DNA from: Microbacterium sp. HD4P20
GTDB lineage: Bacteria; Actinomycetota; Actinomycetes; Actinomycetales; Microbacteriaceae
Reading direction: 5' to 3'
Length of the DNA stretch: 64,000 bases
NCBI RefSeq assembly: GCF_019449275.2
Contig: NZ_JAHZQZ020000022.1
Location: forward strand, 186,001-250,000
Shown here: piece after piece, positions 59,059 through 61,585 of the stretch
Layout of the letters: every line of letters begins with the position of its first letter
Position numbering within the stretch: the first letter of the stretch is position 1
Made by a program: the position numbers and the translations under genes
Notes under the pieces: generated by a model
Databases searched by the model: none
What the model was told of the DNA's origin: nothing
What the model saw: only the letters and a program-made list of their open reading frames with translations

Positions 59059-59106
59059 ATCGGACCGGGATTGTCGGGTGCGCGGTCGCGTCGATGACGA
59101 GGCTTG

Positions 59107-59991
59107 ATGCAGAAAGGGGACGCCGTGATCGCAGCTCTCAACCGACTCGTCGAGATCATCGAGCGCCAGCTCACCGATGAGATCGACATCGCCGGCATCG
59201 CGAGCGGTCTCGGCACCACGGAGTACCACCTGCGCCGGATGTTCTCGTCGCTGGCCGGTATGCCGCTGTCGGAGTACGTGCGGCGGCGCCGCATGGCTGT
59301 CGCGGCGGCCGACGTGCTCGGCGATGAAGATCTGCTGGGCATCGCCGTCCGCTACGGCTACGGCTCCACAGAGGCGTTCAACCGGGCATTCCGAGCCGTG
59401 CACGGCGTGAGTCCTGGCGACGTGCGTCGCAACGGCGGTCCCCTTCGCACACAACCGCAACTCAGGTTCCGCCTGACCGTCGAAGGGAACACCACCATGG
59501 ACACTCGAATCACCGACCGACCCGCGTTCGCGCTGGTCGGATATGCGACCCGCGTGCCCCTCATCCACCAGGGGGTCAATCCGCACATCCAGGAGCACAT
59601 CACCGGGCTGCCGGCATCCGCTCACGCTCGACTCAAAGAGGCGAGCAACACCGAACCCGCGGGACTGCTCCAGGTGAGCGCCGATGTCGACCCCGACTAC
59701 ACGGACGGCAGCGAGCTGACGTACCTCCACGGCGTTGCCGTCGCCGAGGGCACCGAGGTGCCCGACGAGCTCGACAGGATCGACGTGCCGGCCGGGGCGT
59801 GGGCGGTGTTCCGCACCGAGGGCCCGTACCCCGAGGCTCTGCAGTCGACGTACGCGGCCACGGCGGCGGACTGGTTCCCGTCGAACCCGTGGCGGCTTCG
59901 CCCCGGTCCGTCGGTGGTGGCGATTCTCGATCGCTCGGACGACTTCAGCACGGCGACCACCGAGCTGTGGCTGCCGGTGGAGCGGGCCTGA
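59107..59991 (+). CDS. AraC-family regulator with GyrI-like effector domain
   Basis: A 294-residue regulator. The N-terminal double HTH has DIAGIASGLGTTEYHLRRMF and LLGIAVRYGYGSTEAFNRAF. The C-terminal half (from about residue 135) is a GyrI-like small-molecule-binding domain with PAFALVGYATRVP and VPAGAWAVFRTEGPYPE, as in Rob or BmrR-type multidrug sensors. It may respond to toxic organic cations. A TTG lies just before the chosen ATG. Confidence 0.9.
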   Translation: MQKGDAVIAALNRLVEIIERQLTDEIDIAGIASGLGTTEYHLRRMFSSLAGMPLSEYVRRRRMAVAAADVLGDEDLLGIAVRYGYGSTEAFNRAFRAVHGVSPGDVRRNGGPLRTQPQLRFRLTVEGNTTMDTRITDRPAFALVGYATRVPLIHQGVNPHIQEHITGLPASAHARLKEASNTEPAGLLQVSADVDPDYTDGSELTYLHGVAVAEGTEVPDELDRIDVPAGAWAVFRTEGPYPEALQSTYAATAADWFPSNPWRLRPGPSVVAILDRSDDFSTATTELWLPVERA

Positions 59992-60098: not shown

Positions 60099-60488
60099 GT
60101 GGCCACCCTTGACGACCTGCGGCGCGTGACGTCGGGGCTGCCCGGCGCCGAGGAGCGTGCGACGACGGGAGGGGCCGCGTGGTTCGTGCGCGGCAAGCTC
60201 TTCGCGTGGGAATGCCACCCGTGGCCCAGCATCCCCGAAGACATGCGCGCGATCATCGCGCGCGAACTCGTCGTCGGCGTCAAGGTCGCCGACAGTATCG
60301 ACGCGGTTGCCCTTCGCGAGATGGCGCCAGACGTGTTCTTGGGCGCCACGACGCGCTGGGGCGAGCCGAAGGTCGCGTTCCGGATGGCCGGAATCGACGA
60401 CGACCATCTGGTCGAGCTGGTGACCGAAGCGTGGCGCGTTCAGGCGCCCCGATACCTGCGGCGCGAGTGGGACGAGCGCGAGGCCTGA
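60099..60488 (+). CDS. MmcQ/YjbR-family protein
   Basis: A 129-residue protein starting at GTG with TLDDLRRVTSGLPGAEE. It follows the YjbR plan: a central WFVRGKLFAWE, a middle strand EPKVAFRMAG and C-terminal helix LVTEAWRVQAPRYLRREW. The fold is shared with a DNA-binding superfamily, but function is not established. Confidence 0.88.
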   Translation: MATLDDLRRVTSGLPGAEERATTGGAAWFVRGKLFAWECHPWPSIPEDMRAIIARELVVGVKVADSIDAVALREMAPDVFLGATTRWGEPKVAFRMAGIDDDHLVELVTEAWRVQAPRYLRREWDEREA

Positions 60489-60505: not shown

Positions 60506-60778
60506 TCAGGCGCTGCGCGCGCCTCGGGATGCTGCGCCGGCCCATTCGTCGGCCAGCTCGTCGAGCGACAGTCCGAGTGCGTCCCCGAGTGCCGCGACGA
60601 CCCCGAATGCCGGGCTCGGCATCCGGCCGGTCTCGATCTTGCGCAGCGTCTCGGGCGAGATTCCGGCCTGGCCGGCGACGTCGGTCAGCGATCGGGAGCC
60701 GCGGGCGAGCCGCAGCGCCTGGCCGAGCCGGCGCCCCGCGGCGAGTTGCTCAGGGGTGAGGGGTGCGCGAACCATCAT
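60506..60778 (-). CDS. XRE-family HTH regulator
   Basis: A 90-residue protein consisting almost only of a Cro/CI-type HTH: LRLARGSRSLTDVAGQAGIS, PETLRKIETGRMPSP and VVAALGDALGLSLDELADE. Two start codons (60778 and 60775) are adjacent. It is divergent from the aminopeptidase gene, with a 26-bp palindrome between, so it likely controls itself and that gene. Confidence 0.93.
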   Translation of the reverse strand: MMVRAPLTPEQLAAGRRLGQALRLARGSRSLTDVAGQAGISPETLRKIETGRMPSPAFGVVAALGDALGLSLDELADEWAGAASRGARSA

Positions 60779-60799
60779 GTCGGTGTTCCCTCCACGTCA

Positions 60800-60825
60800 A
60801 TGACCGGTATTATTATACCGGTCAT
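60800..60825. promoter_or_regulatory. Operator palindrome between xre and map
   Basis: Perfect 11-bp arms ATGACCGGTAT and ATACCGGTCAT with a 4-bp centre (TATT). The right arm ends in the first two bases of the aminopeptidase start codon, and TATTATACC could serve as a -10 element. Binding would block the aminopeptidase mRNA start directly. Confidence 0.85.
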
Positions 60826-61585
60826 GATCTTCATCCATACTCCCGCCGAGATCGAGCAGATGCGCCCGGCGGGCGCCTTCGTGCGAGACACTCTAGCCAC
60901 GTTGTCGAAGATGGTGGCCGTCGGCGTCAACCTTCTCGAGATAGAGGATGCCGCGAGGGCGGCGATCGCGCAGCGTGGTGCCGTCTCGTGCTACTGGGAT
61001 TACGCGCCCTCGTTCGGCAATGGGCCGTTCCGCAACGTCATCTGCCTGTCGGTCAATGACGCCGCCCAGCACGGCCTGCCTCACGACTACCGGCTTCGCG
61101 ACGGCGACGTGGTGAGTCTCGATCTGGCTGTCTCGGTGGACGGATGGGTTGCGGATGCCGCGGTCACCGTGATCGCCGGACGCCCCGACCCGGCAGACGA
61201 GAGGCTGATCCGTTCCACTCAAGAGGCGCTGGCAGCGGGCATCGCAGCGGCCCAGCCCGGCAACCGCGTCGGCGACATCTCCGCGGCGATCGGTGCGGTG
61301 GCGGCGAAATACGGCTACCCCGTCAACCTCGAGTTCGGCGGCCACGGCGTCGGCCGCAGCATGCACGAGGACCTTTCCATCAGCAACGACGGGCGGCCCG
61401 GTCGGGGCTTCCCCCTTCGACCGGGGCTCGTCTTCGCCCTCGAGCCATGGTGGGCCAAGACGACGGCGCGGATCCGGATGGATGCCGACGGCTGGACCGT
61501 CCGCTCCGCCGATGGCAGTCGCGCCGCGCATTCCGAGCACACGATCGCGCTGACGGCGGATGGGCCGTTGGTGCTGACGGAGTAG
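60824..61585 (+). CDS. map: Type I methionine aminopeptidase
   Basis: A 253-residue metallopeptidase that removes initiator Met. The metal ligands are visible: Asp in VVSLDLAVSVDGWVADAAVT, His in GHGVGRSMHED, Glu in VFALEPWW and Glu in SEHTIAL. The start at 60824 sits in the operator palindrome with no clear ribosome-binding site; a leaderless mRNA is plausible. An additional housekeeping map is expected elsewhere, beside secY, so this may be a regulated second copy. Confidence 0.93.
   Translation: MIFIHTPAEIEQMRPAGAFVRDTLATLSKMVAVGVNLLEIEDAARAAIAQRGAVSCYWDYAPSFGNGPFRNVICLSVNDAAQHGLPHDYRLRDGDVVSLDLAVSVDGWVADAAVTVIAGRPDPADERLIRSTQEALAAGIAAAQPGNRVGDISAAIGAVAAKYGYPVNLEFGGHGVGRSMHEDLSISNDGRPGRGFPLRPGLVFALEPWWAKTTARIRMDADGWTVRSADGSRAAHSEHTIALTADGPLVLTE

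Follow-up and report, generated by a model that had tools for sequence, protein, structure and literature searches.

Helix-turn-helix repressors of the P22 c2, SinR, C.AhdI and HipB type are known for autoregulation, and methionine aminopeptidase, a drug target, is usually seen as a constitutive housekeeping enzyme. No described regulator of this enzyme has been found in the literature consulted, the coverage of which was partial and included few subscription journals, so that this is weak evidence of absence; methionine aminopeptidase is named twice in PMC6022970. PDB 2ofy, a putative XRE-family regulator of Rhodococcus sp., has been deposited without a role, and in PMC9861041 it serves as a simulation test case.

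Here we describe a locus in the window (the whole stretch of 64,000 nucleotides that was analysed), in which the gene of an XRE regulator and a methionine aminopeptidase gene (map) are divergent, with a palindrome between them (Table 1). Comparison of genomes has demonstrated a conserved pairing of the two genes, a conserved site and an association of the site with map in trans. Judged from these sequences, XRE is most probably a repressor that is dedicated to an accessory type I methionine aminopeptidase and also controls its own gene.

Table 1. Coordinates in the window of the features of the XRE-map locus
Feature	Position	Strand	Basis
XRE regulator, 90 aa, helix-turn-helix only (HTH_31), starts MMVR	60506..60778	-	domain match, relatives, structure model
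Probable XRE ribosome-binding site GGAGGGAA, first ATG 7 nt on	60786..60793	-	sequence inspection
26-bp palindrome, 11-bp arms	60800..60825	.	sequence, compared with relatives
Conserved 14-bp operator core GGTATTATTATACC (putative operator)	60806..60819	.	comparison
Putative map -10 box TATTAT, inside operator, 7 nt before ATG	60811..60816	+	inferred
Putative XRE -10 box TATAAT, inside operator	60812..60817	-	inferred
Accessory type I methionine aminopeptidase (map), 253 aa, probably leaderless transcript	60824..61585	+	sequence

The palindrome, the regulator and the map genes

The original prediction was that a palindrome with perfect 11-bp arms lies between the two genes and ends in the ATG of map. 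Such a palindrome, ATGACCGGTAT-TATT-ATACCGGTCAT, is present, and the A and T of the start codon (60824-60826) fall inside its 26 bp. Its 24-bp core pattern occurs only once in the 4.03-Mb genome, even when up to 3 mismatches are allowed. Since the window has several palindromes with 11-bp arms (7 with loops of 0-8, versus 0-4 per shuffle with a mean of 0.9 in 20 shuffles), the symmetry alone is weak proof. The outer 6 bp on each side (ATGACC/GGTCAT), which touch the map start codon, recur, among the loci examined, in the sister species L292 alone, whose palindrome is longer than that of the window, and are absent from the four nearest loci outside the genus, namely L035 and L037 (Cryobacterium), L036 (Herbiconiux) and L072 (Rathayibacter). 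On these grounds the full 26 bp has been rejected as the operator. The predicted overlap of operator and map start codon thus holds for the 26-bp palindrome of this genome and fails for the conserved 14-mer, which stops 4 bp short of the ATG. The neighbouring genes in the window encode an AraC-type regulator with a GyrI-like domain (59104-59991) and a YjbR-type protein (60099-60488), and no link between them and the XRE-map cassette was seen.

The regulator of the window scores 47.6 bits against HTH_31 (cut-off 27). Among the best 80 of 515 confirmed loci in named species, the XRE protein has 86-95 aa and consists of the helix-turn-helix only, without a sensor domain. Its N terminus is (M/V)VR at 80 of these 80 loci and at 79 of 79 class-wide loci; in the same best 80 of 515, the Val is encoded by three codons and the Arg by five. 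The window XRE and several relatives start with MMVR. A structure model (mean pLDDT 88.5) matches the fold of helix-turn-helix regulators, 2ofy being the best of them with a profile E value of 1.3e-34 and 59% identity in the fold match.

Three type I map genes are present in the genome. The existence of further map genes, on which the prediction depended, was therefore borne out, and the gene of the window, which had been called the second, is a third, accessory copy. One of the others (L001) lies in the order secY-adk-map-infA and the other (L003), 61% identical to the window's, between glgX-like and rplS-like genes, the neighbours of both having been read from translations. The window's product scores as a complete type I methionine aminopeptidase by its family model (TIGR00500, 236 bits; cut-off 171.35), with the metal-site positions kept: D100, D111, H174, E207 and E238, which we take to be the five metal ligands of the type I enzyme, are invariant in 13 aligned maps. 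Its structure model (mean pLDDT 89.6) matches 3mr1 with Z 37.0 and an rmsd of 1.3 over 247 residues; compared with 3tav it has about six extra residues near 62-67, a low-confidence stretch of the model.

A tree was built from 91 of 141 maps extracted (for most named loci every third one, and without the L035 map). In it, the map of the window belongs to a supported clade (100/97), the 29 sampled members of which are all paired with XRE. The L003 copy of the same genome groups with unpaired maps, and in a separate clade, to which maps of other members of the genus belong, paired and unpaired maps are mixed. Long branches were flagged by the tree program for L154, L166, L171 and others. The L154 map (G007:C1:549134-549890), a member of the sister clade from another genome of the genus, looks broken, since its matches sit in two adjacent pieces in different frames.

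Pairing with map and the conserved site

Two sets of genomes have been used: a scan of named-species genomes, from which the best 80 of 515 confirmed XRE loci were retained and which is biased to close relatives, and a draw of 197 genomes from the class, searched for XRE at E <= 1e-18, which counters this bias; species may overlap between the two. XRE diverges from map at 78 of the 80 named loci (the best 80 of 515), and those placed in the tree belong to Microbacteriaceae, Nocardiaceae, Mycobacteriaceae, Pseudonocardiaceae, Micromonosporaceae, Streptosporangiaceae and other families. In the class draw, XRE was found in 77 of 197 genomes (77 of the 173 of good quality; 26 of 90 genera), giving 79 loci: map is the divergent neighbour at 61 of them and absent from the stretch taken at the other 18. 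A search of 58 related genomes, the window's own included, gave 11 strong matches (E up to 2.3e-21) outside the own genome, in 10 genomes; all 11 diverge from map, and the next match has an E value of 1.1e-8.

Within the genus, XRE at E <= 1e-18 was found in 46 of 198 sampled genomes, and only that of G287 (94% identical) resembles the window's, the others being at most 67% identical. One genus genome, G021, has two separate XRE-map cassettes (L007 and L163). In three members of the genus (L017, L018 and L021), a different XRE gene adjoins, on the same strand, a distant M24 peptidase gene (28-29% identical). Plasmids gave two weak XRE matches; two Streptomyces plasmids carry maps 65-66% identical with exact 14-mers upstream of both, and one of these maps adjoins an annotated helix-turn-helix gene. 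A phage origin has been rejected, the search of a phage collection with map having given only maps of less than 60% identity.

An exact GGTATN4ATACC is found in 79 of 79 XRE-map intergenic regions (the window and 78 from the best 80 of 515 named loci), compared with a mean of 0.09 and a maximum of 2 of the 79 after dinucleotide shuffling. Because its 14-bp core recurs in every one of these regions, the palindrome of the window is more than chance. The same 79 regions contain 139 exact sites (two in 52, one in 23 and three in 4 regions), the four middle bases of which are for the most part A or T. In the class draw, the exact 14-mer is present at just 11 of 61 paired loci and the remainder have a variant form; a looser pattern fits 59 of these 61 loci, and at L202 and L206 a site was detected by neither pattern. 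This second operator form, in which related 14-bp units stand back to back, e.g., CCATTCTAATACC then GGTATAGTAATTGG, is seen in other members of the genus and at many class-wide loci. In the intergenic regions of L006, L008 and L009, this form fits a reading as three 14-bp units that abut over 42 bp, and such a periodic array might seat dimers side by side. At L262 and L263 the sole site lies about 100 bp upstream of map.

Just one other exact GGTATN4ATACC exists in the own genome (L115 1501-1514; G000:C3:133255-133268). It is flanked by ORFs read from their translations as methionine-synthase-like and as ABC substrate-binding, and lies 63 bp before the latter. Its core is CCAA, and since none of the 139 sites has C at that core position, it is probably a chance occurrence; a wider regulon in this genome has been rejected on account of this core, which is unlike the operator.

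Of 19 genomes in which XRE and map lie apart, 18 have the site at a map elsewhere. Two Nocardia loci (L041 and L050) are the only named loci (best 80 of 515) without an adjacent map; by pattern scan, their genomes have a site at XRE and a pair of sites upstream of a map elsewhere that is 67-69% identical to that of the window. In these genomes, 3 of 5 and 3 of 7 exact 14-mers are such XRE- and map-linked sites, and every other 14-mer has one or more G or C pairs in its core. Class-wide, 16 of 17 genomes with a solo XRE (G129, which has both a solo and a paired XRE, was left out) have a map elsewhere bearing the site within 130 bp of its start, and in G144 a map with the site was not found among the matches listed. 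The solo-XRE genomes gave 49 listed map matches, of which 30 are loci, 21 with the site and 9 without. The solo XRE genes themselves have a site within 40 bp of their own start in 14 of 18 cases, and a site of the looser pattern is absent at the other 4 of the 18 loci.

With the loose pattern, the site was found in 0 of 8 readable same-clade maps from genomes without XRE (of a group of 10, L154 belongs to the sister clade and L155 offers just 8 bp of upstream sequence), 0 of 11 sister-clade maps such as L003 and 0 of 30 other maps, and the pattern fits 13 of 1416 random 130-bp stretches. From these controls and the separated loci, the site therefore tracks the relation between regulator and target and not the gene family. 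The central idea of the original prediction, that XRE controls the adjacent map through an operator common to both genes, has thus gained strength at the level of sequence: XRE, site and map are found together in cis as well as in trans, and the negatives are clean.

Promoters and readings of the circuit

No ribosome-binding site is visible before the map gene of the window, where the TATTAT box lies 7 nt from the ATG, and the single 14-bp site holds the -10-like boxes of both divergent genes. A leaderless map transcript, which had been proposed from the short leader, is thus probable, and the mRNA would start at or near the ATG. What is expected of a divergent autorepressor with a shared operator, a conserved symmetric site overlapping promoter elements, is seen here in the sequence. 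An XRE dimer would be expected to sit on the 14-bp site and to block both promoters; since one site holds both -10-like boxes, XRE would silence its own gene and map together. The regulator would limit itself, and map would stay quiet up to the loss or inactivation of XRE.

At 76 of the 80 named loci (best 80 of 515), XRE looks leaderless: its start is preceded at 6 or 7 nt by a TANNNT box, a spacing that suits a leaderless transcript. A ribosome-binding-site-like stretch is seen at 7 of the 80. For the 78 maps of the same set (again from the best 80 of 515), 71 have a ribosome-binding-site-like stretch without a leaderless-type box, 6 the box only, 1 neither and 0 both. The XRE loci without a box are apparently L035-L037 and L072, all from Microbacteriaceae, as assigned from eight upstream stretches inspected, and map is of the leaderless type there, as in the window. 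In the class draw, the XRE box is present at 76 of 79 loci and map is of the leaderless type at 13 of 61. Judged from sequence, leaderless status appears to have been swapped between XRE and map among lineages. This exchange between regulator and enzyme makes the lineages naturally suited to comparing how a circuit is shaped by leaderless translation.

The strongest of the other readings, though an unlikely one, keeps the same circuit and lets the repressor itself sense N-terminal processing through its Met-Val-Arg start. Removal of the first Met would alter the N-terminal DNA-contacting arm of XRE, and falling activity of methionine aminopeptidase (or deformylase) would lift the repression of the accessory map. 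The constant (M/V)VR start at all of the best 80 of 515 named and all 79 class-wide loci, the small size of the protein (86-95 aa, no sensor domain) and a target which is the very enzyme expected to do the processing all speak for it. However, Met-Met is a poor substrate of methionine aminopeptidase and the window XRE and several relatives start with MMVR; a simpler view is that Val-Arg just contacts DNA. If true, a universal step of protein maturation would be under feedback control, by a regulator that 77 of the 197 class genomes carry.

Repression by XRE, rather than activation, is favoured by the position of the site. Activation of map, or action in both directions, would suit the many two-site relatives with one of the sites upstream of map, far enough away for use by an activator, but the single site of the window holds the -10-like boxes, a position usual for repressors, and we regard this reading as still less likely than the previous one. 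Very improbable is a toxin-antitoxin-like pair with XRE as antitoxin: the match of XRE to the antitoxin model TIGR03070 is weak, its 28.4 bits being far under the cut-off of 71.65 for HipB-like antitoxins, the score of the partner (236 versus 171.35 bits) is that of a complete methionine aminopeptidase, and the two genes are divergent and do not form one operon. The least probable reading, a chance repeat or terminator-like hairpin, could appeal to the seven palindromes with 11-bp arms in the window but is rejected by the recurrence of the core in 79 of 79 intergenic regions (78 from the best 80 of 515 loci), its presence with map at separated loci and the control maps without the site.

Comparison with known regulators and enzymes

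The dedicated regulator and operator, with the regulator in 77 of 197 class genomes, suggest that many actinobacteria adjust methionine aminopeptidase activity on demand, and a spare copy of a normally always-on enzyme seems to be kept under its own switch. The enzyme shares its family with housekeeping MapA (TIGR00500; fold of 3mr1) and differs from it in its separate clade, its own regulator and operator, and the extra residues relative to 3tav. The solved 2ofy belongs to the same family as the window XRE and has the same MVR start, so this regulator family obtains a probable role, and the locus offers a simple assay for what the cell senses. With P22 c2, SinR, C.AhdI and HipB, XRE has the helix-turn-helix fold and a symmetric site in common; their targets are phage, biofilm, restriction and toxin genes, whereas that of XRE is methionine aminopeptidase. 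A divergent autorepressor with a shared operator is a familiar logic, and methionine aminopeptidase as its target seems to be new.
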